Of a stretch of 64,000 bases of DNA, positions 42,655 through 59,885 are shown one piece after another. The notes below the pieces were generated by a model that saw only the letters and a program-made list of their open reading frames with translations, had not been told where the DNA came from and did not search any database. Source of the DNA: Bacillus sp. FJAT-22090 (GTDB lineage Bacteria > Bacillota > Bacilli > Bacillales_A > Planococcaceae); assembly GCF_001278755.1 (NCBI RefSeq), contig NZ_CP012601.1, forward strand, positions 124,001-188,000. The letters run 5' to 3'. Positions within the stretch are counted from its first letter, which is position 1, and every line of letters starts with the position of its first letter. Made by a program: the position numbers and the translations under genes.

Positions 42655-42875
42655 ATTTATGCATCAAGACTTGTGGATTATGAATTTAATGGTCCCGACT
42701 GGTCTCGAACCAGCGACCCCCACCTTGTCGAAAGTATCTGGCCAAATTAAGCTAGTTCAGCTCAGTAAATTAAGTATGAGAAACGTTGATTTATCAAGGT
42801 TTTCATCAATCATAAAATCAACTGAGTTAAATAAAAACAACTGAAAAAAATAATTTTGTGAGCATTTTGGTGAGC
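42655..42875. repeat. Module-boundary repeat, copy 1, with tRNA-3'-end-like remnant
   Basis: TTATGCATCAAGACTTGTG, TGGTCCCGACTGGTCTCGAA, CCAGCGACCCCCACCTTGTC and TATCTGG recur in order at 52130-52210 with mutations. The minus strand reads GGGTCGCTGGTTCGAGACCA-GTCGGGACCA, which folds as a T arm (CTGG-TTCGAGA-CCAG) followed by an acceptor-like end. Behind it, the paired direct repeat GTGAGCATTTTGGTGAGCA lies at 42857-42875. Confidence 0.65.
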
Positions 42876-43667: not shown

Positions 43668-46600
43668 GTGGTTATTCAATCAACAGCTATTTCTAATAGT
43701 AGTGGAAAAGGTGCTTATAGAGAGGTATCAAAATTAATACAACAAGTCTTCTTTTATAATCAAGAAGCTTATGGTAAACAACAATTTGATGAGAATGGAA
43801 AAGTAATATATAAAACAATTTATAGCCGAATAGATGCTCATATTATTCATTATTCAATAGAGAATAAAAAAGCATTAATGGCGTATCAACAAAAGTTTAA
43901 TAAATTAAAGTGGCTATGTTTAGACTTCGATATCAAGAGTTCTGTATTAGAATCTGGATATGATTTTTTTAAGGATGATATACATAGACCTTTGTTAATA
44001 CAAGAGGTAAATAAAGCAATAAACTATTTGAATGAAAATAAAATCAATTATTTATTGGAGTTCTCTGGAAGCAGAGGGTTCCACATTTGGATTGTTTTAG
44101 ATTGTGAAGTTAGCAAACAGTTAGGAAGTAAGATACTTGAGAGTCTAGTAGAGAATTTTAGTTTTGATTATTTAAATGACAAATCAAGTTCAATCGTTTT
44201 AGATATGTATCCTAAAAATGCTAATCCGAAAGGAAATAAAATTGGCTTAGGAGTAAAAATCCCTGTGTCTTTTCATCTGAAAAGTGGAAGATACTCTATG
44301 TTATTGAGTAGTATAGATGATGTTGATATAGTAACAGAGTTAACTACAAAAATAATATCTGAACAAGAAAATATTCTGAGAGACTATAAAGTTAATGATA
44401 TTAACGATTTGATAAAAGTCTTAGGTATAAGTATATCTGTTGAGGAAAAAAAATATGACAGAATGATTGGAACTGTTGATAAAAGTGAGAGTTTAACAAA
44501 TATAATTACCAAGTTATCCAAATGTGGTGTTTACAAACATTTATTTTCAAAAAGCATAGCTGATTTAAATGAATTCGATAGAGCAATTATAGTAGGCACA
44601 TTTATAAGATTGAGAAATGATTCGGATCTATATTACGGTAAAAAACTACTATTAGAATTTTTTGCTGAGGATGCAGAAAAATTTAATGAAACAATTACTA
44701 GAGATAAGTTAGAATTAATGCAAAATTTTTATCCACCATCAATAGAATATCTTCACAAAAAATATGATATAGATTGTTCTCATTGTAATGGCATCAATAA
44801 TATTCTGGAGTTGATTGAAGGAATAACTTTACAAGAGGATTTAAATTCAGAGGAAAGGTTTTTAAATTGGATTATTAGAGCAGAAAAAAAATACTTAACT
44901 CAAAATGATGAAGTTCCTTTGAATCATATATATGATGAGCTTAGCGAGGTTTCTATAGAAGATTTAAAAATGAAAATAGAAGGAATTTCTATGGGGGAGT
45001 ACCCCATGATATCGGCAAATATTTTCATCAGGAAAGAAGAGGAAAAAGAAAGAATTTTATATGGTTTATCTGCTCCTGATAGAGTGTTAACATCATACAT
45101 AATGTACGAAATAAATAAAATATTATATGGAGAATATAGCTCTACAAATTCATATAGTTATAAATTAAATTATGATTTTAGATACAATGATATATTTGTC
45201 AATTGGAATAGAATGTGGTTAATGTATGTTAAGGAAATTGAAGATAAAATATTTAATGAAGCCTATAATGATTACTATATATTAAAGTTAGATATACGAG
45301 GTTTCTATGATTCAATAAATAGAATTTTTTTAAGGGAAATATTATATAACAAACCTTCGACAATGATTGAACTAATATTAAAAAATTTAAGTCCAGAAGA
45401 AAAACGAAAATATGTTTATATGTGCGAATATTTGATTGATGCTGCAAGTAAAGTCAGTAGTACGGGTGTCCCTCAAGGACCAGCATTTGCTAGGTATCTA
45501 GCTGAAATTTATTTAGCTCCTTTAGATCAATTAATAAGTTCGAATATTATAGATGGGTTTGAACATTACTATAGATATGTTGATGATATGGTGATAATAG
45601 TCGAAACAAAAGAGAAAGCAGAGGCTTTATTAGGGGATATTAAAAATTATTTAAATACAAGGGATTTAAACTTAAATGACAAAGTAAAACATGGTTATGT
45701 TAACGAATTAAAATACGAAATAATTAACCAAGATTTACAAAAATATTTTGTTGATTCAATAGATGAAGACACTGCCCCTATAAAGGTTATTAACAAGGCT
45801 ATTGAGATGTTAAATGAGATGTTAAATGATACTTATGATAGTCTTAACAAAAAGAATCTGCCGTTTTTCTTAACACATTTAATAGATGCAGATTATTTAC
45901 AAAGTAAATTAGAAGTAATTGTACCAAATGTAGTAAATTCTGAGATAGGAAGAGGTAGTTTATTTAAGCACTTCTATAAAAATATAATATTTAAACATTC
46001 AGAATTTATTAGTATAGATTTCTATAAATTATTAAAAGGCTTATCGCGTGCAAATTTTATAAATGAAATGGCAAAGAATGTGGAATTGATTTCAGAAGAG
46101 GTTGTCGCAGAAATAATTCAGTATTACCTTAATGAAGATTTATTTCCATATGAAAGGGTAGAGTTGTTACGTATTCTTTTAAAAACTGGATATAAATGCG
46201 AATTAAATTTAGCTTATGAGGATTTAGAGATTATTTTATTTTTAGTTAAGTATACTAACGATATAATTTGGTCGGATGAATTATTGAAACAAGTAACAAA
46301 GCATTTACAAGGAAAGACAGATAAAAGAGAAGTTATTATTAATTTAGAGGATCTTTTAAATTCCTCCAAAAAGATTGTGGATACTTCGAATATAGTTCAG
46401 ACAATTTACATTTCTTTATCTTTACATTTTGATGATTTATATAGTAAGGATATTTCACAAAAGATTTTCAATTTAATTTCTTATGTATCAATTTTTTTAG
46501 AAGAAATCCAAGTAAAAGATATTTGGAGAAAATTCTATAAGTCTGTAAACGGAAGTCCACTAAATTTAAATACAAGACAATGGTATAAGTTTAAATCAAT

Positions 46601-48986
46601 TATCAATAAAGCTGAATTAAATGATGCAACTGTTATTGTTATTTTAACAAGGGTATTTAAGAGAGAAGGCATAATTCAATCTATAGGCACATCTAAAACC
46701 GAAGAAGAATATGCTCTCTATTTATTTTTATTTTTATTTAAAAGTGAAGAATATAACGAGCGTACGTTAATGGTAGAAAAAGTTAAAGAAATCGTAGAAG
46801 AAAATAATATTGAGTTTCTTAGATGGTGTTTGGACGAGGATGTAAGATATTTCCCTAGTGATGAATTTGCAATAAAAAATATACAATTCAATAATAGAAT
46901 TGTGATGATTAATAACCAAAAGTTGTTAGTTCGTGGACTTCCGGAAATTTTTGTGGACTATGAAGAGCATGAGATAAAGAATGATTTGTGGTATAACGAT
47001 AGCGAATATAACTATATAGAAATTGATGTCAATGAACAATTATTAAATATAGAAGATAAGATATTTAGTATGCATTTATTTGAGGCGCTAGATTTTTTAA
47101 TTAGCACAGAAGAAATGAGCAATTACAACGGGCGATATATAAATGTTTTTGAGAAAGGTACATTTATTGCAGCGGAAAAAAAGCTTCAAATGTCGTACAG
47201 TAAAAACGATAAATTTATAGTATTAAATGATAGTGACCCAGTTTTAAATAGTAGATCACATTTTATAAATGCTCTTATAAAAGTTTTCAAAAAAACAAAA
47301 GTTCAAAATGTGGAATATAACCTTAAATATAGTATAGAATCTGAAAAGTTCTTTGATGAATTTGTTCCGAAGAGTATAGATAAACCTCTAGAAATATGGG
47401 AATATTTAAAAATTCTTAATATGAATCTGAAGAGATATATCGAAAGTTTAGGAGATAAGATTTATGTTGTTGAATTAGCGAAAATTGAAAGTATTAAAGA
47501 ATATGTGAATCAGGTAAGTAGAATCAAATCCAATGAAAAGTCAAAAGGAGAAGTTCAATTCGGGAAGTTTTCAAAAGTACTTAGAATCCTAAATTTATAT
47601 CATTCTTTAAATCCTAATAGTGAATTTGAAAAACATTTATTATATTCACATCAAGAATTAGATCCTTCTAATCTACAAGTATTAATATCAGGAGTTATAT
47701 TATCTATTACTAAAAATATTGAACATGAAGATTTAAATTTTATATGTGATTTTTTAAATCAAGAATTGAATCAAATAAAAGAGAATCATCCCAATTTAAC
47801 AGACTTTGAATTGATAGATGTTCAAAGGCATCCGTTTAATAAAAATAAAATTAAAATTAATGGAACTGATTATGAAATAGAAAATATAGACATATATGAA
47901 TATGGTGCTGAATCAGTAATAAGAGAGCTAAGTATTAAGGACATTATGAATTTAGAAACAAATTATATATACTTTAATAAGCAGCTAATGGTAGTGTTAC
48001 CTAATGTAATTGCAAAATCAATTGAAATAATAGGGAATAAAGTAAATACGTTTGATAAAATACACTTTGTTCAAAATGCACATATTAGCAATATAGACGG
48101 TTATAATCAATCTATAAATGTAATAATGAATCAAAATCAAGTTTCAAAGGCAGAAGCTGAAATGAGATTATATGATTTTTTAAAAGATAAAGAGAACCGA
48201 TATTATGAATCTATTATAAATGTGATATCTTCTTATAGGATTATGGATAAGTCTGAAATTAATTACCTAGTTGAAACAATAAAATTAAAAGTAGATTTAA
48301 ATAATGAAATGGACTGTATTTTACCCCTAAAATCAGATAGTGATGATAATGGTTTGCATCAAATTTTATATGTCAAAAATAAAGAGATTTTTGATAGAAA
48401 CACACCGTACAAAAAAAGGTTAATTAATGATTTTGAAAAACTTAATACTGCTCAAAATTTAAATGAGATAATAATCGTATCTGATATTGGTGTAAGTGGT
48501 AAACAATTTATTGATACTTTTAAGAAATATTGTGAAGTTAAAAAAGGTATTAATTTAAAATCTGTATATCATAAAATAAAAGATGGGGAGATATTTAAGG
48601 GGAATATATTGAATGCTGGTAAAATATTGATTTTGACTTGTGTTTATACAGATAAGTTTAAAAGTAGTATTCAAGAATATTTTGATGAGATTGGTTATAG
48701 AGGGTCATTAGAATTTTTGGGAACTAAAATTAATTATAAAGACTATTTATTTAATACACTTATTGATAAGAAAATTAACAGAGAATTATTTATAGAGTTT
48801 ATAAATAAATATTTTGCGGATAAAGATCTTAGAGTGAGTGGCAATAGTTATTTAGACTTTATAAGCCAAGTTGAAGATGATGATACCAAAAATATGCTAA
48901 TATGCAGATACAAAAGCATGCCAAAATATCACCATGTAATATTAACTAAAAATAATGCAATTTTTAATTATAGAAACGACAAATAG
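43668..48986 (+). CDS. Primase (AEP) - reverse transcriptase - PRTase-like fusion protein
   Basis: A 1772-residue protein with GTG start behind ATGGGGG. Residues ~1-230: archaeo-eukaryotic primase-type domain; metal motif LCLDFDIK (Asp86, Asp88), SGSRGFHIW (Ser133-Trp141, His139) and the later VLDMYPKNANPKGNKIGLGV, as in primases of the TOTE/herpes-like group. Residues ~470-740: reverse transcriptase; LDIRGFYDS (Asp542), GVPQGP (600-605), YVDD (637-640), all catalytic residues kept. Residues ~750-1450: long helical region. Residues ~1560-1720: PLKSDSDDNG and IIIVSDIGVSGKQF (V1604-K1612), resembling the PRPP loop of phosphoribosyltransferases, with RGSLEFLG after it. I recall primase-containing UG/Abi reverse transcriptases (UG10, DRT type 7) and a PRTase-CE domain from conflict systems; this protein fits them. 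Anti-phage defence is inferred. It stands alone in module B. Confidence 0.85.
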   Translation: MVIQSTAISNSSGKGAYREVSKLIQQVFFYNQEAYGKQQFDENGKVIYKTIYSRIDAHIIHYSIENKKALMAYQQKFNKLKWLCLDFDIKSSVLESGYDFFKDDIHRPLLIQEVNKAINYLNENKINYLLEFSGSRGFHIWIVLDCEVSKQLGSKILESLVENFSFDYLNDKSSSIVLDMYPKNANPKGNKIGLGVKIPVSFHLKSGRYSMLLSSIDDVDIVTELTTKIISEQENILRDYKVNDINDLIKVLGISISVEEKKYDRMIGTVDKSESLTNIITKLSKCGVYKHLFSKSIADLNEFDRAIIVGTFIRLRNDSDLYYGKKLLLEFFAEDAEKFNETITRDKLELMQNFYPPSIEYLHKKYDIDCSHCNGINNILELIEGITLQEDLNSEERFLNWIIRAEKKYLTQNDEVPLNHIYDELSEVSIEDLKMKIEGISMGEYPMISANIFIRKEEEKERILYGLSAPDRVLTSYIMYEINKILYGEYSSTNSYSYKLNYDFRYNDIFVNWNRMWLMYVKEIEDKIFNEAYNDYYILKLDIRGFYDSINRIFLREILYNKPSTMIELILKNLSPEEKRKYVYMCEYLIDAASKVSSTGVPQGPAFARYLAEIYLAPLDQLISSNIIDGFEHYYRYVDDMVIIVETKEKAEALLGDIKNYLNTRDLNLNDKVKHGYVNELKYEIINQDLQKYFVDSIDEDTAPIKVINKAIEMLNEMLNDTYDSLNKKNLPFFLTHLIDADYLQSKLEVIVPNVVNSEIGRGSLFKHFYKNIIFKHSEFISIDFYKLLKGLSRANFINEMAKNVELISEEVVAEIIQYYLNEDLFPYERVELLRILLKTGYKCELNLAYEDLEIILFLVKYTNDIIWSDELLKQVTKHLQGKTDKREVIINLEDLLNSSKKIVDTSNIVQTIYISLSLHFDDLYSKDISQKIFNLISYVSIFLEEIQVKDIWRKFYKSVNGSPLNLNTRQWYKFKSIINKAELNDATVIVILTRVFKREGIIQSIGTSKTEEEYALYLFLFLFKSEEYNERTLMVEKVKEIVEENNIEFLRWCLDEDVRYFPSDEFAIKNIQFNNRIVMINNQKLLVRGLPEIFVDYEEHEIKNDLWYNDSEYNYIEIDVNEQLLNIEDKIFSMHLFEALDFLISTEEMSNYNGRYINVFEKGTFIAAEKKLQMSYSKNDKFIVLNDSDPVLNSRSHFINALIKVFKKTKVQNVEYNLKYSIESEKFFDEFVPKSIDKPLEIWEYLKILNMNLKRYIESLGDKIYVVELAKIESIKEYVNQVSRIKSNEKSKGEVQFGKFSKVLRILNLYHSLNPNSEFEKHLLYSHQELDPSNLQVLISGVILSITKNIEHEDLNFICDFLNQELNQIKENHPNLTDFELIDVQRHPFNKNKIKINGTDYEIENIDIYEYGAESVIRELSIKDIMNLETNYIYFNKQLMVVLPNVIAKSIEIIGNKVNTFDKIHFVQNAHISNIDGYNQSINVIMNQNQVSKAEAEMRLYDFLKDKENRYYESIINVISSYRIMDKSEINYLVETIKLKVDLNNEMDCILPLKSDSDDNGLHQILYVKNKEIFDRNTPYKKRLINDFEKLNTAQNLNEIIIVSDIGVSGKQFIDTFKKYCEVKKGINLKSVYHKIKDGEIFKGNILNAGKILILTCVYTDKFKSSIQEYFDEIGYRGSLEFLGTKINYKDYLFNTLIDKKINRELFIEFINKYFADKDLRVSGNSYLDFISQVEDDDTKNMLICRYKSMPKYHHVILTKNNAIFNYRNDK

Positions 48987-49569
48987 ATTTATCTCTTTTT
49001 CTTTACACAAATATTATACAAGTCTACCTTTAATTGCTTGTCATCCAAGGCGATATCATCGGAAAATTTACAATCAAGTCAAATTGAAAACACCCGCAGA
49101 CGTGATAAACAAGCGTTTTTGGGTGTTTTTATGTTTTTAAGCAGTTGATAGAAAACGATAAGATTTGAAGCCTGATTTAAAAAGGTTTTCGCAGTTGTGA
49201 TAATCATTTGAGTAAAATAAGATCGGTTCAAAAAATTAATTATGCGGACAAATTGCGGACAAATGAGTGAACAGGTGGTCAGTATTACTTCTGGGATAGA
49301 AACAGTATATAACAGTTTTATTTCCTTGCAATTTTTTAATAATCCTATAGATGGGATATTACAAAAAAATACCTTAAGCTATATTAACAGTTAAAATAAT
49401 GTTCACTTGTTTAAAAAACAGGTGGCATTTTTTGAAGTAAATATTATGTCGTTATATTACTTAATATGATCTATCCTTTAACAACTTTAAAGAGAAATAA
49501 TAATTTTGTTTATTTATTTAAGTATAGTAATGTAGAATTACAGAAAATAGGTATTTAGGAGGGAATTTT
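48987..49569. other. Gene-free stretch between modules B and C
   Basis: Holds a weak hairpin (AAAACACCC / GGGTGTTTTT, 49086-49137) that may end the primase-RT transcript, the paired direct repeat GCGGACAAATTGCGGACAAA at 49244-49263, and a terminator (CACTTGTTT / AAACAGGTG plus T run, 49404-49433). No gene seen; a structured RNA cannot be excluded. Confidence 0.6.
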
Positions 49570-50040: not shown

Positions 50041-50091
50041 AGAATTATGCTTAATAAAAATAAAGAATATTTTTTAAAAGGGAGAATAAAC

Positions 50092-52068
50092 ATGTCTAAA
50101 GTATTAGAACTCAATGAACTTGATATCTTCAGTAATTCAGCTGATGTATGGGAATTTTTACAGAAGAGAGGTGGAATTGATACTAAATATTACGATAAAG
50201 GTATTGAAAGCGATTTAAGGGATAATTTAGGCCTCTCACATACAATTAGTGTTAAGAAACAATTACAGGATAAAGAGATTAGTATCGAGCTTTTTTTACA
50301 GGCTTTTTTTACATCCCTAAATCCTTTTTCACAAATGTTTAATGATTTAATTAAACTGTTTGAAAGTAATAGTATCAGAGAAACTAATGAATCAATATTA
50401 ATTAAATTTGACTTTCAAAATGAAATTGACTCCTTAGAATTTAATTTAGATCAATTTAAAGTATGGGTAAAAGAATGGAAGTCTATCAAAACAAAAATTA
50501 ATCTCTTAGATATTAACAAAAATAATTTGTATCGTTTACAGAGAATTTTTGATGAATTCAACGATATTTATAAATTTACGACTAAAATAGATTATGAAAA
50601 TAAAGAGTATCTTACAACAGAAACGAGTGAATGGTTAAAAGAATATTATTTAAATTGGCCAAATGGTAGTAATTTAATATTACCTAAAACAAATAATAGA
50701 AATTTGAATGATTTGTTAAATCAGATTCAAGTTATCTTTAATAGTGTGATAGATTCTTTGTCTTTATTAGAGGTAAATTATTCAAAGTTATATACTTTTT
50801 TATCAGAATCTGAAAAAAACAATAATCAGGATGAATTACCAGACTATGCATGGAATGAGGTCGATTTTTGGGCAGGAAACTTTTTAAAACAATATTCTAT
50901 TTTAATTTACGGAATTAATAATAACTCGGATTCAATAAATGTTGAGCTAATAAGAAATCTTTGTGTTCAGTTAGAGTTATACCTAAGCTCCATCTCAAAT
51001 AGTATAGAAAATTCAGCTATTATACAGGAACTGATGGAATTTCTACAGCTTCCTATTTGGAAAAAACGATACGATTTTTACGCTACTTGGATTTTAACTC
51101 AGATTTCTGATTCATTAGGAAGGGAAAGGTTACAATTCCATACTACCAATGGAAAGCTACAATTTTCTTTTGCGGGTTCACACCTGGCAACAACAAACGC
51201 TTTTCCAGAGTTACATATATGGTCTGAACTGAGATCTACTCTTTTAAACCCTATAGGTAAAGGTAGGAAAAATGGAATTCAACCAGATTATTCCATCATC
51301 ATACCTCCATTATCAGACATAGTTTCCTCAACTTTATTAGTTGTGGAGTGTAAACAATATAGAAGAGCTTCAAAAAAAAATTTTAATAATGCGTTAATCG
51401 ATTATGCTAACGGAAGACCTAATGCTGAAATAGTATTGGTGAATTATGGTCCAGTTAATAATAAGATTCTAAATGAAATAGAACCTAATTTAAGAACGAG
51501 AACACATATAATTGGAGAAATGAAACCCGGTAATATAGAATCAATTAAAAAATTCAAAGAATTAGTTCAAAAGGCTACTAAATTGTCTGACACAAAAAAC
51601 GATATTCCTCGAGATATAGATAAAAAAGTTGAATGGAATAATAGTAGGAACGTGAATATTAAACTAACATGGGACGAACTACCACTAGATTTGGATTTAA
51701 ACCTTTTCCTAACTGAACCTAATAAAAATTGTCATGTAATTAATTATAATAATAAGGGGAATAAACATGTTAAACCCTTTATTGAATTAGAAAAAGATAT
51801 AACTAATGGAAAAGGCCCGGAGATTGTAACTATTAACAAATTTTTGCAGGGAAATTATTTAATTGCAATTTATAACTTTTCAAACGATCAACCGCTTACT
51901 ACTAGTAATGGTAAAATTGAAGTAGAAATTGACAATAAAAATTTCATATTTGAATGTCCTAAAAATGGAGAGGGCAGGTGGTGGGTTGTATTAGAAGCTT
52001 CCCCATTTGGCGGTGATTTTTTTATCCATAATAAGATTCAGGATAATATACCAGAAAGTAATTATTAA
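50092..52068 (+). CDS. PD-(D/E)XK nuclease-like protein with YfaP-like C-terminal domain
   Basis: A protein of 658 residues from the ATG (MSKVLELNELDIF) behind AAAGGGAG; the longer frame has no ribosome site. Residues ~1-330 are helical and unassigned. Residues ~345-490 fit a restriction-endonuclease fold: RKNGIQPDYSIIIPP with Asp399, then LLVVECKQYR with Glu419-x-Lys421. Residues ~525-650 (LTWDELPLDLDLNLFLTEP, then LEKDITNGKGPEIVTIN) follow the YfaP/DUF2135-like beta-sandwich pattern 'DlDLhv..P.g......i..D...G.GPE'. The joining of a nuclease with this domain, in a defence-like island, suggests an effector with a binding part. The actual target is unknown. Confidence 0.7.
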   Translation: MSKVLELNELDIFSNSADVWEFLQKRGGIDTKYYDKGIESDLRDNLGLSHTISVKKQLQDKEISIELFLQAFFTSLNPFSQMFNDLIKLFESNSIRETNESILIKFDFQNEIDSLEFNLDQFKVWVKEWKSIKTKINLLDINKNNLYRLQRIFDEFNDIYKFTTKIDYENKEYLTTETSEWLKEYYLNWPNGSNLILPKTNNRNLNDLLNQIQVIFNSVIDSLSLLEVNYSKLYTFLSESEKNNNQDELPDYAWNEVDFWAGNFLKQYSILIYGINNNSDSINVELIRNLCVQLELYLSSISNSIENSAIIQELMEFLQLPIWKKRYDFYATWILTQISDSLGRERLQFHTTNGKLQFSFAGSHLATTNAFPELHIWSELRSTLLNPIGKGRKNGIQPDYSIIIPPLSDIVSSTLLVVECKQYRRASKKNFNNALIDYANGRPNAEIVLVNYGPVNNKILNEIEPNLRTRTHIIGEMKPGNIESIKKFKELVQKATKLSDTKNDIPRDIDKKVEWNNSRNVNIKLTWDELPLDLDLNLFLTEPNKNCHVINYNNKGNKHVKPFIELEKDITNGKGPEIVTINKFLQGNYLIAIYNFSNDQPLTTSNGKIEVEIDNKNFIFECPKNGEGRWWVVLEASPFGGDFFIHNKIQDNIPESNY

Positions 52069-52124
52069 TATTCATTATTCAGGAGTATTAATTAGAATTT
52101 CTCTTGCTAAGATGCAACAAACCT

Positions 52125-52345
52125 TTATGTATCAAGATTTGTGAATTAAATCTAATGATGGACCCGACTAATTTTGAACCAGCGCCACCCATCTTATCGA
52201 ATTTATCTGGCAGAGAAATTCTAGTTAAAATGAATTCAATTAAGTTAAATAAGTTTGATTTAATAAGGTTTTAGTGCCTGGTAAAGACATTTCAGAATTA
52301 AAATTGGTGACAACAAAATAATCTACGGACAAGAGAGCAAATAAG
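52125..52345. repeat. Module-boundary repeat, copy 2, with degenerate tRNA-like remnant
   Basis: TTATGTATCAAGATTTGTG, TGGACCCGACTAATTTTGAA, CCAGCGCCACCCATCTTATC and TATCTGG match copy 1 at 42655-42745. The T-arm pairing is partly lost. ACGGACAAGAGAGCAAATAAGT follows at the position where copy 1 has the paired direct repeat (quoted in 11-base halves: ACGGACAAGAG, AGCAAATAAGT). Confidence 0.6.
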
Positions 52346-52665: not shown

Positions 52666-54246
52666 ATGGATATTGATTTTGAATCGCTAGTATCTGAAGG
52701 AACATTAGGATTTTATAAGTCATGTGAAGTAACCACTATTTTTATTTTTGATAAAAACAGTAAAAAGACGTTTAATTTTTATACACTTATAAATTTTGAA
52801 GAAAAAGAATTTTGCGGTACAAATAAGAAAATTTTAAATGAACGCCCTCTGGATTTAACAAGTAATTTAATATTAGGAATTATACAATACAATTTAAATT
52901 TATTAGATATAAAGAAACTCTATTATAGTCTTCTAGAAGTTAATGATTGGGAATTAGAAGGACAAAAACTAAATTTTAATAAATTCACTAAAATTAACAA
53001 ACAATTTATTAAACCTAATGGGACAAAATCAATACCTTTAAACTCTATCTTAAAAAATAATTATAATAATGGGTCATATATTATTGAGTTTTTTGATGCT
53101 ATCAAAAGCTTTCCAAATACTAAATTAACTAATGAATTGTTTCCCAAGATAAATGAATTTATAAAAAGATATCTCCCTATCGATTTAGAATATATAAGCG
53201 ACAGAGTAGGTAATATAATATTTCAATTTCCTTCAAAAATTCTAGATGTTTCAATTACTGCAAATGATGAATGGGATGAAATGAAGTTAAAGGTTGTATT
53301 TGATGAAAAAATACAGACAGATAAATATAAAGTATTAATTACAGGTACACATGATAGTTCTATAATGGGGTTTGGTTTAAAAGACGGTGTAGATGATAAT
53401 ATTTTTGAAATCAAAACTGGTAGTACAAGTTATTTAAATGATGTAAGTATAGTGGATTCTCAAAATAACATTATCGCTTACGCTTCAACTTTTAGTTTTA
53501 TGAAAGAAATGAATTTTATTATGGATATTTCAACTCAACATTCCCAGCAGCGTACTATCAATCTAAAATCTGAAAGCCATGAAATAGCTATTGTCTCACA
53601 AAGCGATAATAAAGTTAAAAGGAATTTAGATTATAAAGATTGGATAAGTAAAAGAACATACAAAAATGAAAAAGATGAGTTAACTCGTAGGTTAGAATTT
53701 GTGCAATATGGTATTACAGGAAACGAAAGAAATAAGGCCTTGGGGGATATAAGAAAATTAATAGATATATATGGTAGAGACGGTGTGTATTTATGGGATC
53801 CGTATTTAACTTCTGAAGATATTCTAGAAACCTTATATCATTGTAAATATATAGGTGTTGAAATGAAAGCTATAACATCATACGATAAAAAACGCCGTAA
53901 AATTTATAGCAAAGAAATTGTTTGTGAAAAAAATACTTTAACTATTGATGAATGGAAAGATTATCAACGCAATAGTTTTCTAGACTCAAGTAATAATTTA
54001 GGAATAAATTTAGAATTTCGATGTCAACATGGTGAATTTGGTTGGAAATTTCATGATCGGTTTTTAATTTTTCCAATTAAAGATTTTGCGCCTAAAGTAT
54101 GGTCTTTAGGGATATCAGTAAATGGATTAGGGAAAGAACATCATATTTTACAACACGTTAGTAATCCTCAAAATATACTAGATGCTTTTAATGAACTTTG
54201 GCATGAGTTAAATAATGATAAATGTTTAATTTGGAGGTCTAAATGA
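52666..54246 (+). CDS. Module D gene 1: PLD-like protein, VPA1262-like
   Basis: A soluble protein of 526 residues; ATG behind GGGGAGATGGG. The N-terminal half is mixed alpha/beta without a known motif. The C-terminal third (residues ~360-526) resembles phospholipase D-like proteins in strand order: VYLWDPYLTSEDILETL, later FHDRFLIFP with His463-Asp-Arg465, then WSLGISVNGLGKEHHILQ, where a PLD enzyme has HxK and GSxN. The lysine of HxK is Arg at +2, so activity is uncertain. I recall similar endings in proteins named 'VPA1262 family'. It overlaps gene 2 by four bases, so the three genes form one operon. Confidence 0.65.
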   Translation: MDIDFESLVSEGTLGFYKSCEVTTIFIFDKNSKKTFNFYTLINFEEKEFCGTNKKILNERPLDLTSNLILGIIQYNLNLLDIKKLYYSLLEVNDWELEGQKLNFNKFTKINKQFIKPNGTKSIPLNSILKNNYNNGSYIIEFFDAIKSFPNTKLTNELFPKINEFIKRYLPIDLEYISDRVGNIIFQFPSKILDVSITANDEWDEMKLKVVFDEKIQTDKYKVLITGTHDSSIMGFGLKDGVDDNIFEIKTGSTSYLNDVSIVDSQNNIIAYASTFSFMKEMNFIMDISTQHSQQRTINLKSESHEIAIVSQSDNKVKRNLDYKDWISKRTYKNEKDELTRRLEFVQYGITGNERNKALGDIRKLIDIYGRDGVYLWDPYLTSEDILETLYHCKYIGVEMKAITSYDKKRRKIYSKEIVCEKNTLTIDEWKDYQRNSFLDSSNNLGINLEFRCQHGEFGWKFHDRFLIFPIKDFAPKVWSLGISVNGLGKEHHILQHVSNPQNILDAFNELWHELNNDKCLIWRSK

Positions 54247-55751
54247 GAAAGATAAATCCAAATTTTTTAGAGAGTGTTAAGAGAGTTACATCATGTAAGA
54301 AGTTAAATAGTAAATATATCGAGTTGCTATTAGATGAGCTGGATAAATTAAAGATACAAGAAATTATTGGTAGTTCAGATTTAATGAATTCATTTTATGA
54401 ATTATTTGATAATGAACTACCATTTATTAAAGAGTATTATGTTTATGGTAATTATCCAGTATATCCCCAAAAGATAGTTGAAGAATCGGAAGTTTTAATT
54501 ACAGCCGATTTTATAGAGTTAATCAATTCTGAAGTAACAAAAATTAATGATGTTAAATCTTTGATTCCAATATTAATAACTTATAAATTTCTAGGTTTAA
54601 GCTATGATGATTATAATTTAATTCAAAATATTGACTCACAAATTAGGCAAAACTTAAAAAATGAATTAGTATTGATTGTTAAATCATTGAAATCAAGTAT
54701 ATCAAAAAGTCAAGGTACCTATTCAGATTTACAGTTCGTTAAAAGCTATGAAGAAGGGACTAAAGCGGCAAATGCTAATCTAATATATGAGTTTGTTGAA
54801 GCTGTAGAACGTGGAACGGGCTTTCATGCACCAGCGTTTATACCAGAAGTAGTTATGTTTCTATTAAAGCTCGATTGTGACTTACTGGTAGAGGGCTTAA
54901 ACGAAAAGCAAGAAGTTTTAGAGATAATACTATTATTAAATTATATTGAATTTCAAGAAAAGATAGATGTTTTAACAAACCCCAATTTAATAAATAAATG
55001 GTGTCTTTACGAGCTATTTAGGCAAATACTTAATGAGTCTCAAAAAATAGACCTATCTCAGGAGTTAATAAAAAAATTAAGCTTCATATTTTTACGAATC
55101 GCAAAGAGTGATATTAGCCTTTATAAGGAGAAATTACTTAATAGAAAATATGATAAAAATTTCATTTTAATATTTGCAAACACAATAAATGGTTTAGAAA
55201 AGAATTTTATTGATGTATATATTGAAACTTTACAATTAAATACACATAGCAATAATTTAGAGCTTAACCGATTGTTTTTAAGTACCTTAATAGACATAAG
55301 TGTAGGAGAGAATGCAGTATATTTATTTGAAAAAATCTATTATAGATGGATAGCCTATTTAGAGGAACTTTATGAGAATGAGGCATATATTTCAGATTTG
55401 GTGTATACAGATTATTATTACTGTGTACTTCACTATTTAATGGAAAAATTAGATAAAAATACAATATATGAAGAGCTAACAACAATAATAGATTGTTTAG
55501 ATTCTTTAGAAACTACTTGGAAAAAAAGTGCTACGACTGAACAATCGCATTTTTTTATCTACATTACTCGACTTTATACCTTGAGCATTATATATAAAGA
55601 AAAAAATATAAAAGTTCCAAACAATTATTATAAACAAGTCACTAAATATACTGATAATCCAAAATTGTGGTTAAAATATTTTAATTGTATAGAGATACCG
55701 AGTATTTTTAAGGAAATTAACAATAACTTAGACATCAAGATTCAAGAGTAA
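54243..55751 (+). CDS. Module D gene 2: all-helical protein of unknown function
   Basis: A protein of 502 residues whose start overlaps the stop of gene 1 (ATGA). It is nearly entirely helical, Leu/Ile/Lys/Glu-rich, with repeating 30-40-residue segments that suggest a HEAT/TPR-like solenoid, but without a clear repeat consensus. No membrane segment, no catalytic motif. The strict coupling to gene 1 suggests that the products form a complex. I do not recognise the family. Confidence 0.65.
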   Translation: MRKINPNFLESVKRVTSCKKLNSKYIELLLDELDKLKIQEIIGSSDLMNSFYELFDNELPFIKEYYVYGNYPVYPQKIVEESEVLITADFIELINSEVTKINDVKSLIPILITYKFLGLSYDDYNLIQNIDSQIRQNLKNELVLIVKSLKSSISKSQGTYSDLQFVKSYEEGTKAANANLIYEFVEAVERGTGFHAPAFIPEVVMFLLKLDCDLLVEGLNEKQEVLEIILLLNYIEFQEKIDVLTNPNLINKWCLYELFRQILNESQKIDLSQELIKKLSFIFLRIAKSDISLYKEKLLNRKYDKNFILIFANTINGLEKNFIDVYIETLQLNTHSNNLELNRLFLSTLIDISVGENAVYLFEKIYYRWIAYLEELYENEAYISDLVYTDYYYCVLHYLMEKLDKNTIYEELTTIIDCLDSLETTWKKSATTEQSHFFIYITRLYTLSIIYKEKNIKVPNNYYKQVTKYTDNPKLWLKYFNCIEIPSIFKEINNNLDIKIQE

Positions 55752-55789
55752 ATTACCTACAAAAAAATTTCCTAATGAAGGGGAATCTT

Positions 55790-57550
55790 ATGAACATTAA
55801 TAAAGAATTAACGAATAAAGTTGATAGACTAATAGAAATAACTAAACATCTTGATACACGTGAAGTAATTGGAATGATTAATGTTGAATTTCAAGTTCAT
55901 TTTATGCAACGTAATGTTTTTGAAGCAACGAATTTAATTTCGCCCTTTAAGCAATATATTTACTTATTAAATCTACTATTAAGTAATCCAAAAGTAGAAT
56001 GTGAGGATCAAGTGGCATTTGAAGATTCTTATGAAGAAATTAAAAAATTGTTAAATGAAATTTCTCGACTTTATGCCTTTATATTTTTTCCTGAAAATAC
56101 TGAAGAAATTTCTGATACATGGAGAAGGCACAGAGAGTTAGCAATGCCTGTATTTATGAATTATTTTAATATGCATTCTTTGCCTTATGAAGAACAAATT
56201 ATTGAGAGACTTATAGATTGGGCAAGCCCTTTTAATTCGACTTTACAAGAAGCAATCGGGATATCTGTAAATGAATCAATTGAGATGTATAGGTATATAC
56301 AGAAAATGTTACAAGAGCAATTAACATCTACTCAAAATGATACTTTACAATTATTAAAGGCACATGAATTTTTTGTTGCTTTAATGGAACGAGAAAAAAT
56401 AGATTTTGATATTGCTATGGAAAAAACTAGAGAAGCGTTCCCATCAAATAATAATCCTTTTGAACAAGACTTTTTTAAAATTAATCTCTCTAAATTCGAA
56501 GATGAGTTTAGTGTAGAAAAAACTGAATGTTTTTTTAACGTTTTTTCATGTGAGAGAGAAGAAAGTGAGTTCTATTATTATACTGAAAAAGGAAATTTCG
56601 ATACTAGACCTATCATTAAAATAAATGGACAATATTATGTACCGATTTATAAGCAAATTTTACATGCTTTTGAATATAGATTCTTTGAGATTTTAGAAAA
56701 TAGTGATAAACGTAGTTCTTTTTTTAAAAACCGTGATAATAAGTCTGAAGAAAAAACTAAATCAATATTTGAAAAATTATTTGGAACTGATGCAGAGTAT
56801 TTTACTTCAGCTTTCGAATCGCCTGATTCTCAAAATGAACATGATTTATTAATAATAACTAAGAATAATACGATATATATCGTTGAAGTTAAAGCATCTA
56901 AATTTAAAGAACCATTTAGAGATCCAGACAAGGCCTATCAGCGTATAAAAAGAGATTTTAAAAGTGATGGAGGTATTCAAAAAGCTTATAATCAAGCAAA
57001 GAGCCTTCATGATTTAATTATGAAACAGGAAAGAACCGATTTATATAATCAATCTGGAGAAGTTATTACTTCAATTGAGCGTTCAAAAATTAAAGCCGTA
57101 TATACTATTTGTGTTACAGCTGAAAATTTCGGTATTGTGGCATCCAACTTGTCGTATTTACTAGAGAAGGGAGTAGAAGATAAATATCCATATGCTGTTA
57201 ACATTTTTGATTTAGAATCGATAGTAGAGTACATAGAATATAAAAAAATTCCAGTAATAAAATTTAATGAGTATTTAGATTTTAGAAGTAAATACCATGA
57301 TAAATTGATTGCTGGTGACGAATTGGATATATTCGGATTGTTCCAGAATAGATTCGATATTCAAAAATTAAATAGCGTAGATAAATACTTTGTAAGTCAT
57401 GAGTACTCAGATATTTTCGATGAAATGTATTTTACAAAATTAGGTATTATAGAAAAAATGCCGAAGCCTAGAGCCAAGCATAAAAATAATCATAAGACTA
57501 AAAATCGAAAAAGAATGGCTAAAGCAAGCAAACGTAGGAATAGAAAGTAA
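55790..57550 (+). CDS. Module D gene 3: PD-(D/E)XK nuclease
   Basis: A protein of 586 residues from the ATG (MNINKELTNKVD) behind GAAGGGG; 38 bases after gene 2. The N-terminal ~320 residues are helical. The nuclease domain at ~330-480 begins FGTDAEYFTSAFESP, with Asp352 (NEHDLLIIT), Glu366-Val-Lys368 (IVEVKASKFKEPF), and a downstream Gln in YNQAKSLHDLI, a complete D-x13-ExK-Q set. The last ~25 residues are strongly basic (Lys/Arg/His), suited to bind nucleic acid. It is the likely effector of the three-gene operon. Confidence 0.75.
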   Translation: MNINKELTNKVDRLIEITKHLDTREVIGMINVEFQVHFMQRNVFEATNLISPFKQYIYLLNLLLSNPKVECEDQVAFEDSYEEIKKLLNEISRLYAFIFFPENTEEISDTWRRHRELAMPVFMNYFNMHSLPYEEQIIERLIDWASPFNSTLQEAIGISVNESIEMYRYIQKMLQEQLTSTQNDTLQLLKAHEFFVALMEREKIDFDIAMEKTREAFPSNNNPFEQDFFKINLSKFEDEFSVEKTECFFNVFSCEREESEFYYYTEKGNFDTRPIIKINGQYYVPIYKQILHAFEYRFFEILENSDKRSSFFKNRDNKSEEKTKSIFEKLFGTDAEYFTSAFESPDSQNEHDLLIITKNNTIYIVEVKASKFKEPFRDPDKAYQRIKRDFKSDGGIQKAYNQAKSLHDLIMKQERTDLYNQSGEVITSIERSKIKAVYTICVTAENFGIVASNLSYLLEKGVEDKYPYAVNIFDLESIVEYIEYKKIPVIKFNEYLDFRSKYHDKLIAGDELDIFGLFQNRFDIQKLNSVDKYFVSHEYSDIFDEMYFTKLGIIEKMPKPRAKHKNNHKTKNRKRMAKASKRRNRK

Positions 57551-57892: not shown

Positions 57893-59521
57893 ATGAATGC
57901 AGTTGAAATTATTACTTGGCCATTTAATGAAACAAATTTAAAAAATATACATAACACCGAAAAATATTTGAATTACCCTGTTATCTATTTACTGAAGGAT
58001 CAAAAGGAAGCATATATTGGAGAAACGGTAGCGTTTAAAAAACGAATGCTTTCGCATTTACAATCAAAAGAGCGACAAAAATTAGATGAGATGCATTTAA
58101 TTCACCATGAAGAATTTAATCGTTCTGCTACATTTCATTTAGAAACGAAATTAATTAATTATTTTTTAGGAGACCAGAAATATAAACTTCAAAATAAAAG
58201 TCAGACGGTTAGTGATATTTCTCATAATTACTACAATAAACAGTTTTATGACCGGGATGTCTTTCGAGAAATTTGGAAGGGTTTAGTTGATAAAGGAATT
58301 GTAAGTAATGAGCAACACGTTATTGAAAATCGAGACGTGTTTAAATTGTCACCTTTTAAAGAGTTATCTGTGGACCAGTTAGAACTCAAACGAAAGGTTA
58401 TTGAGATTTGTGAAAATAACATCACGCGTACAGAAGAAGACAAACCATTTTTATATTTAATTCAAGGTGAAGCTGGTGTAGGGAAAAGCGTTGTATTAAG
58501 TTCAATATTTAATACTATTCAAGAATTATCAAAGGATCCTTCATCAATCTTAAAAGGCACAACAAATTATTTAGTTGTTAACCATGACGAAATGTTAAAA
58601 ACATATAAAAGTATTGCATCTAAATTAAAATATTTAAAAGCTAAAAATTTTGCAAGACCGACACCACTAATTAATCGATTAAAAAATTCTTGTGAAAAAG
58701 CAGATATAATATTCGTAGATGAGGGGCATCTGTTATTAACTCGTCCAGATACTTATAATAATTTTAAAGAGAATAATCAATTAGAAGAGTTGATGAAACA
58801 AGCTAAAATCGTTGTAGTTGTTTATGACGAGAACCAAGTGTTAAAGTTAAAAAGTTTTTGGCAGGCTATGACATTACACCGTTTAATAGAGCAAGCAGAT
58901 ACAGACAACTATGAATTAAAAAATCAATTCCGCATGAAAGCCAATGATTTGGTTATTGAGTGGATTGATCATTTCAAAAATAAAATAGTAAGACCACTTC
59001 CAAAAGATAAAGAATACGAAATGAAAGTATTCGAATCACTCCAAGGTATGCATCAGGCAATCATTGAAAAAAATAAGGTGCATGGCTTAAGTAGAATAGT
59101 TTCTACTTTTGATTATCTCCACAAAAAAGATGGTGGTATCTATTATATAAACGAGGATAAAGGTGAATATAAAATTCCATGGAATATTACAGATAGCAAC
59201 TATACATGGGCAGAAAAAGAATCAACTATTGCAGAAGCCGGTTCCATTTATACAATTCAAGGATTTGACTTAAATTATGTTGGTGTAATTTTAGGTCCTT
59301 CTGTTACTTATAACGGGAAACTAGATAGATTAGAAATAAATCCAAAGTCTTATAAAGACGTAGGTGCATTTGCAGGTGTTGAAGGAATTGAAGATGTAAA
59401 TGCTGCGAAAGAGAAAATAATTTTGAATTCTATTAATGTGCTGATGAAACGAGGGATTAAAGGGTTATATATCTACGCAAGTGATGTTGGGTTGAGAAAA
59501 AGATTATTGGAGCTTGAATAA
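57893..59521 (+). CDS. GIY-YIG nuclease domain fused to DUF2075 P-loop NTPase
   Basis: A protein of 542 residues. Residues ~25-110: GIY-YIG nuclease (VIYLLKDQKEAYIGETVAFKKR, shown in part: IY 31-32, YIG 41-43, Arg51). Residues ~160-540: DUF2075-type helicase-like NTPase, Walker A GEAGVGKS at 192-199, Walker B IIFVDEGHLL (Asp276, Glu277), and a late superfamily I-like motif TIQGFDLNYVGVILGP. Such proteins are thought to act on DNA or RNA and are frequent in defence islands and plasmids. It lies just outside the right att site, so it may belong to a second insertion or to the core genome. The start follows AGGTGG. Confidence 0.85.
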   Translation: MNAVEIITWPFNETNLKNIHNTEKYLNYPVIYLLKDQKEAYIGETVAFKKRMLSHLQSKERQKLDEMHLIHHEEFNRSATFHLETKLINYFLGDQKYKLQNKSQTVSDISHNYYNKQFYDRDVFREIWKGLVDKGIVSNEQHVIENRDVFKLSPFKELSVDQLELKRKVIEICENNITRTEEDKPFLYLIQGEAGVGKSVVLSSIFNTIQELSKDPSSILKGTTNYLVVNHDEMLKTYKSIASKLKYLKAKNFARPTPLINRLKNSCEKADIIFVDEGHLLLTRPDTYNNFKENNQLEELMKQAKIVVVVYDENQVLKLKSFWQAMTLHRLIEQADTDNYELKNQFRMKANDLVIEWIDHFKNKIVRPLPKDKEYEMKVFESLQGMHQAIIEKNKVHGLSRIVSTFDYLHKKDGGIYYINEDKGEYKIPWNITDSNYTWAEKESTIAEAGSIYTIQGFDLNYVGVILGPSVTYNGKLDRLEINPKSYKDVGAFAGVEGIEDVNAAKEKIILNSINVLMKRGIKGLYIYASDVGLRKRLLELE

Positions 59522-59885
59522 AATTTAATTCAACCCTCAAATGCTGATTCCCCATAAAGACATTCATTAGAATAAATTAGATATATAGAGATTAAAAGCT
59601 ACAATTACTGAAGAGAATTCAGTAATTGTGGCTCTTTTGTTGTCTCCGATATGTCCCTACTTTGCAATGTACATATTTTCCAGAAACAGCGGTTAACATA
59701 GAACTGTTTTATAAGAAATTCCAAAGACTATTTAACATAAAAAACCATCTCACAATTCCGAAAATTTGTGTTAAAATAAACTATCAGTCTACTTAAAGTT
59801 TATATAAGTATTTATTATCTTAGCTTGCAGAAGTGGCTGTCGTTTGTACAAAGGGAGTTTTAAGAAAATTAAGGGGGATAGGAAA
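59522..59885. other. Intergenic stretch before sstT
   Basis: Holds a strong hairpin at 59593-59640 (AAAGCTACAATTACTGAA / TTCAGTAATTGTGGCT plus T run) that ends the DUF2075 gene, then AT-rich promoter sequence. No gene. Confidence 0.7.
59593..59640 (+). terminator. Terminator after the DUF2075 gene
   Basis: Long stem with loop GAGAA and a CTCTTTTG tail. Closely related in sequence to the terminator after sstT (61171-61214). Confidence 0.85.

Follow-up and report, generated by a model that had tools for sequence, protein, structure and literature searches.

A DRT7/UG10-large primase–reverse transcriptase of Bacillus sp. FJAT-22090, and the possible relation of its C-terminal tail to type III-A retron effectors

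The DNA analysed in this study (the window) is a stretch of 64,000 nt from Bacillus sp. FJAT-22090. At positions 43668..48986 of its forward strand, it contains a single ORF with a GTG start codon, 7 nt downstream of a GGGGG stretch (noticed by eye, unscored), which encodes a protein of 1772 amino acids assigned below to the DRT7/UG10-large family; all the parts of the gene are given below by their positions on the same strand. The initial annotation had described this product as a triple fusion of a primase, a reverse transcriptase (RT) and a phosphoribosyltransferase (PRTase)-like domain, and both the ORF and the motifs on which that description was built (DFD, SGSRGFHIW, Asp542, GVPQGP, YVDD and VSDIGVSGK) were confirmed.

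The gene has a GC content of 26.0%, and lies in a low-GC variable region (39341-59800, 28.1% GC; both flanks, 36.9%) which adjoins ssrA. The next sizeable ORF listed starts 1060 nt 3' of the gene. Two genes, smpB (located upstream of ssrA) and the transporter gene at 59844, were present in all 19 genomes of the genus searched, this one included. Here, 21 kb separate the two. In 10 of the 18 other genomes, they share a contig and are oriented to each other as in the window, with ~31 to 91 kb between them; of the remaining eight genomes, one has them 12 kb apart but oppositely oriented, two have them more than 300 kb apart on a single contig, and five have them on separate contigs. Because spacing and arrangement differ in this way among the genomes of the genus, the stretch between smpB and the transporter gene is considered variable. 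At the Rfam gathering scores, no ncRNA besides tmRNA was found in 38500-60500, and no second copy of the ssrA 3' end that might form a flanking repeat was found, within 3 mismatches, in the 64-kb window.

Several other features of the region were recorded. An inverted repeat (AAAACACCC ... GGGTGTTTT, 49087-49129), recognized by eye 3' of the UG10 gene, is perhaps a terminator. Two diverged direct copies, very roughly 170 bp long (42656-42850 and 52120-52300), flank the UG10 gene and the ORF at 50047; the former copy holds a tRNA-end-like segment (GGTCTCGAACCAGCG), and the two are perhaps remnants of attachment sites. The ORF at 50047-52068 (673 aa) gave no significant family match, and by eye contains a restriction-endonuclease-like part (PDY...VVECKQY). 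Farther downstream, three ORFs (52666-57550) look like a second defence-like cluster: the first has a VPA1262_N domain (226 bits against a cut-off of 80), the next, at 54243-55751, is unknown, and the last, at 55775-57550, is of the NERD-nuclease type (25.7 bits, cut-off 22.1). The ORF at 57893-59521 joins a GIY-YIG-like N-terminus (22.4 bits, just below the cut-off of 22.6) to a Schlafen group 3 helicase domain, which scored 318.8 bits.

An archaeo-eukaryotic primase (AEP, PrimPol-like) domain spans residues ~46-248 of the protein (43803..44411), as indicated by Pfam, PDB and NCBIfam matches. When the N-terminal fragment was scanned, the Pfam family AEP-TOTE matched residues 46-213 with 37.7 bits (cut-off 27, E 2.2e-9); in the whole-chain Pfam scan, AEP-TOTE was not listed. 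Residues 55-248 matched PDB entries 7nqf and 7nqd (E 1.7e-10), whose PDB name is just 'TPR_REGION domain-containing protein' and which we take to be a CRISPR-associated primase-polymerase. The primase domain is common to the window protein and to CRISPR-associated primase-polymerases or TOTE-type AEPs. The protein differs from the CRISPR-associated enzymes, however, in that it scores under the equivalog cut-off of NCBIfam PrimPol_Msp (E 3.4e-18; 65.5 bits against 200), so that a CRISPR PrimPol equivalog was ruled out, and in that a scan of seven neighbours gave no match to cas genes at E <= 0.1.

The catalytic residues of the primase are invariant in four of four rows of an alignment of the window protein with three homologues (L015, L016 and L018, see below). 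This applies to motif I, DFD (residues 86-88; 43923..43931), to Ser133, Gly134, Arg136, Gly137, His139, Ile140 and Trp141 of motif II, SGSRGFHIW (residues 133-141; 44064..44090), and to Asp179 (44202..44204), a candidate for motif III by analogy with AEP enzymes. To judge from these matches and residues, the protein carries a real AEP primase domain, as had been proposed.

The RT core (residues 522-672; 45231..45683) was matched by Pfam RVT_1 with 52.7 bits (E 5.9e-14), and here too Asp542 (45291..45293), GVPQGP (residues 600-605; 45465..45482) and the active-site YVDD (residues 637-640; 45576..45587) are invariant in all four rows, so that the RT retains all its catalytic aspartates. The variant YVDD, with Val for the Ala of YADD, is given for 16 G2L3/UG10 members in section 12 of PMC4244168, and motif 5 of the window RT shows this UG10 hallmark. 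The best of the 5027 PADLOC models was RT_UG10_large, which aligned with residues 17-1771 over positions 2-1686 of 1688 with 1600.2 bits, followed by RT_UG10_small (371 bits, residues 17-823) and by RT_UG17, the best non-UG10 class, with 74 bits; the assignment of the RT to UG10 is based on this profile ranking. A retron RT was ruled out, in that the RT_outgroup model (labelled retron) scored 12.3 bits against 1600 for RT_UG10_large; a group II intron RT was ruled out by the same ranking and by TIGR04416, which scored 58.7 bits against a cut-off of 300.

The window protein resembles UG10-large (PADLOC PDLC03746) over its full length, i.e. in the primase, the RT with its YVDD and the long C-terminal part, and no excluding difference was found. 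By profile and motif comparison, it is therefore a full-length member of the known DRT7/UG10-large family. The small form of UG10 (PADLOC PDLC03747) has a model of 824 positions, which matches up to residue 823 and includes neither the middle region nor the tail of the window protein; the remainder consequently looks like an added module. The whole-length architecture is not new: it is already described by one PADLOC model, and three preprints are devoted to DRT7 (cited jointly in PMC13174585, and one each in PMC13213688 and PMC13314766). In the passages of these papers that deal with the system, the two names are equated as DRT7/UG10 (PMC13314766), DRT7/UG10 is counted among antiphage systems (PMC13314766 and PMC13213688), DRT7 is entered as a single multidomain fusion (PMC13213688), and the preprints are cited, in all three papers, for DNA made without copying a nucleic-acid template.

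The middle region (residues ~824-1479; 46137..48104), which starts where the UG10_small match ends, contains no recognized domain: Pfam gave zero family matches at E <= 10 for residues 645-1400. Identity to L015 is 22-34% per 100-residue block of residues 801-1500, and the predicted model that touches this region is of very low confidence (pLDDT 39.8).

Three homologues were found. L015, from a Clostridium metagenome-assembled genome (MAG), is full-length (38% identity over the alignment; 1184 bits with RT_UG10_large) and keeps the primase and RT sites. The other two are partial, and have RT_UG10_large as their best PADLOC model: L016, from a Clostridia MAG, reaches residue ~1114 and then a stop near the contig end, and L018, from a plasmid of Peribacillus muralis, covers the first 845 model positions, crosses the start of the record and ends its frame 60 residues farther on. 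On this plasmid (L018 5983-8718 and L019 8353-10000), the UG10 frame ends near an IS3 element, and the PLSDB table has no gene there.

Sequence searches showed the UG10-large gene to be very rare and patchy. Among 101 relatives, the full-length match was confined to its own genome, and the 9 other matching genomes matched in the RT core only. Family searches, whose genome sets overlap, each hit a single genome, one already known, among 398 of the class (threshold E 1e-40), 398 of the phylum (threshold E 1e-30) and 391 of the class of L015 (threshold E 1e-30); in the first two, the gene of this study was matched with E = 0. One scan of genome contigs returned two homologues, and the plasmid search one near relative, other plasmid records matching in the primase or RT core alone. 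Four scans of viral contigs gave no relative, the 11 phage records that matched the protein did so in the RT core only, and a tblastn search of plasmids with the C-terminal 528 residues gave no match at E <= 5.

Nor was a common neighbour seen when listed ORFs and annotations at the four UG10 loci were compared, unsystematically. Acetyltransferase-like and channel-like ORFs are close to L015, and the UG10 gene of L016 begins 30 nt past a UvrD-like ORF (unannotated ORFs were named by eye). As no common neighbour was seen among the four loci, the single UG10 gene is probably sufficient, and it looks self-contained, with no visible partner, in agreement with the stand-alone gene initially described. 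Comparison of the flanks of the homologues revealed no clear similarity and no conserved flanking RNA, which fits the listing of DRT7 as a single multidomain fusion in the entry of PMC13213688.

The nature of the C-terminal tail (residues ~1480-1772; 48105..48983) is less evident. The PADLOC model PRTase_III-A, which represents the effector of type III-A retrons, matched residues 1498-1675 with E 4.7e-4 when a 293-aa fragment was used, but was listed neither with a 673-aa fragment (E <= 10) nor with the whole chain (E <= 1). Pfam PRTase-CE matched residues 1516-1713 of short fragments with E 0.017-0.019 (15.4 bits, cut-off 27) and a longer fragment with E 0.21, and was not listed for the whole chain (E <= 1); the tail of L015 matched neither profile. 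The two profiles describe one family, because L023, a PRTase-CE protein, matches both. Since single profiles saw the tail weakly and the two stand for one family, 12 PRTases were gathered for profile–profile comparison, four from genome searches (L023-L025 and L031) and eight from plasmids (L034-L041).

A comparison by hhalign of the UG10 tails with a profile of three PRTases failed (probability 0.6%). With the profile of 12 PRTases, the two UG10 tails gave E 7.9e-4 in local mode (24.5%) and E 3.6e-5 in global mode (44.7%), in a collinear alignment in which the PRPP loop and a second, C-terminal motif are in register with those of the PRTases. The best 6 of 39 slices of the chain, in either mode, start at residue 1293 or beyond, and 60 column shuffles gave no E lower than 0.077 (local) and 0.02 (global). 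In plain hmmsearch, the 4.9 bits of the window tail (residues 1480-1772) were reached by 185 of 20000 shuffles, the 5.7 bits of residues 1500-1772 by 102 of 20000, and the 10.2 bits of the L015 tail by 4 of 20000. When 327 slices, taken from UG10 and from other proteins, were ranked by plain HMM score, the top 10 were all UG10 tails; three slices from the N-terminal half of L018 followed closely with 7.4-7.5 bits, near the two best tail slices of the window protein (8.5 and 7.8) and above two further ones (6.9 and 6.3). Pairwise identity between UG10 tails and PRTases is 10-21%. A profile of the two UG10 tails searched against the PDB sequences had a splicing factor as its sole match (E 0.029).

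Two motifs are shared with the PRTases. The PRPP-loop-like VSDIGVSGK (residues 1604-1612; 48477..48503) is aligned on the PRPP loop, with SDIG.SG.QF kept in L015, where the loop reads FSDIGISGS. The second motif, NMLICRYKSMPK (residues 1742-1753; 48891..48926), is aligned on a PRTase motif of the type 'LI.F...TPNNT..FW', of which the 'NN' is replaced in the UG10 tail; RYKSMPK is kept in L015. PRPP loops usually contain two acids, D-D. The loop is S-D in both the window protein and L015 (IIIVSDIGVSGKQF and LLIFSDIGISGSQF, respectively), so that the first acid is missing. Among the 12 reference PRTases, eight have D-D and four (L037 and its close relative L038, L040 and L041, with VTDFIGSG or VTDLIGSG) have T-D, and in each of these four loci an RT is the next annotated gene downstream. 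Because PRTases with a T-D loop adjoin RTs, the missing first acid is by itself no argument against an effector role. With a PRTase_III-A model, L037 reaches 376 bits and L041 383, and all seven of the 12 reference PRTases run through PADLOC match PRTase_III-A models; the L024 locus (as L029) gives 344 bits with PDLC02934. RT-like ORFs with YADD, recognized by eye, adjoin L029 and L031, and near L034 there is an annotated RT of the retron St85 family, with one small ORF between.

Taken together, these data lend moderate support to a PRTase-related tail, one that is distantly akin to the PRTase effectors of type III-A retrons, and the credit that we give to this reading derives mainly from the slice and shuffle controls of hhalign. 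The PRTase-like domain of the initial annotation has thus gained from the comparison with the 12 PRTases, while single profiles see it weakly and PRTase-CE stays under its cut-off. What was found, then, is an AEP primase, a PRTase-like signal in the tail and an RT that, by profile ranking, falls with UG10 and not with retrons or group II introns, as the initial annotation had anticipated.

In the passage on type III-A1 retrons in PMC12548924, PRTase/WH genes are named as their typical effectors. Type III-A retrons (RT, PRTase and winged-helix protein) and UG10-large have in common an RT paired with a part of the PRTase-CE/PRTase_III-A family, and some PRTases of these retrons share the one-acid PRPP loop with the UG10-large tail. 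The two differ in that the retron PRTase is separate, whereas the PRTase-like part of UG10-large is fused, and its RT is of the UG10 class; no conserved flanking RNA was found at the UG10 loci compared, and the Pfam and PADLOC scans listed no winged-helix match to the window chain or its tail. The DprA system of P2-like phages also has a PRTase as its suspected effector, with a different sensor, according to the part of PMC9122126 devoted to it. UG10-large proteins may be one-chain retron-like machines, in which a DNA-writing primase–RT is fused in cis to a PRTase effector of the type III-A retron kind, an idea to which we give slightly less than an even chance. In the literature covered by a non-exhaustive search, no passage seen ascribes a PRTase domain to UG10/DRT7, and such a domain may well be described in the UG/Abi paper and in the three preprints on DRT7; the new point may be this kinship between the tail, in cis with polymerases, and the effectors of type III-A retrons.

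As regards the window protein itself, the chances appear about even that it is a DRT7/UG10-large defence RT carrying its own retron-type effector, where we infer from its sequence the activity, the part in defence and the effector role. The primase–RT pair would make DNA without a nucleic-acid template, as the preprints are cited as reporting for DRT7, and phage infection would change the synthesis of this DNA, or its product. Such a change would turn on the PRTase-like tail in cis, through the middle region, and the active tail would consume or alter a nucleotide or a PRPP-linked metabolite, by which the infected cell would be stopped. One UG10-large chain would in this way do the job of the RT and the separate PRTase of a type III-A retron. 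If this is true, one effector family has been recruited by two RT classes, with intramolecular control, and two groups of defence RTs are linked through one effector family. DRT7 is now being worked out as a template-free DNA maker; as to the way in which its DNA leads to defence, a tail of the retron PRTase effector type would mean product-controlled activation of a metabolic effector inside one protein, and would allow a clean comparison of the small, tailless form with the large one.

The main rival of an effector tail is a UG10-large defence RT whose PRTase-like tail is not catalytic. PRTase folds are also used for regulation, as in PyrR, and the tail could be a ligand sensor or scaffold by which DNA synthesis is gated according to the level of PRPP or nucleotides; the effector would then be the DNA product itself. 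We consider this somewhat unlikely, because genome context marks the retron PRTases with a T-D loop as effectors, and because the conservation of L015 holds in the three blocks of the tail (32%, 37% and 49% identity, against 22-34% in the middle). It is doubtful, to a greater degree, that the C-terminal domain is no PRTase and that the likeness of its loop is due to chance. This would agree with the weak and fragment-dependent scores of single profiles and with the AlphaFold2 models of the tail, which are of low confidence (pLDDT 39.8 and 48.4), and fold searches with the tail model gave weak matches, the best by Foldseek being a hydrolase (E 0.19); the hhalign controls described above point the other way.

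The suggestion of the initial annotation that the tail perhaps modifies a nucleotide or the product is one possible reading, but the relation to type III-A retron effectors makes an effector or a nucleotide sensor more indicated than such a modification. In particular, a tail that joins in DNA making, e.g. one that adds a phosphoribosyl group to the priming residue or to the product, appears the least probable reading of all: the physical fusion to two polymerases and the PRTase signals (PRTase-CE, PRTase_III-A and hhalign) would accord with it, but no PRTase is known to work on polynucleotide ends, and the family members found are separate genes by RTs or TOPRIM fusions, in conflict-like contexts. 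It is also highly improbable that the protein acts outside defence, as a DNA repair or tolerance polymerase (a PrimPol–RT hybrid) that happens to lie within a variable region. A preprint title cited in PMC13174585, on a bacterial PrimPol–RT hybrid with a proofreading exonuclease, speaks for such a function; against it stand the rarity and patchiness of the gene, its position in a low-GC variable region among genes read as defence-like, and the counting of DRT7/UG10 among antiphage systems in the pertinent passages of PMC13314766 and PMC13213688.

Finally, two of the PRTases from the genome searches showed other arrangements. In L023 (1411-2877), PRTase-CE forms a fusion with a TOPRIM domain of the OLD-like kind (215 bits), beside an ORF resembling a coiled-coil ATPase. 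The PRTase-CE protein of L025 (1123-2397, reverse strand) is matched by WH_III-A, a winged-helix model, as well (E 1.1e-6), and its gene adjoins an ORF with the look of an HNH nuclease.
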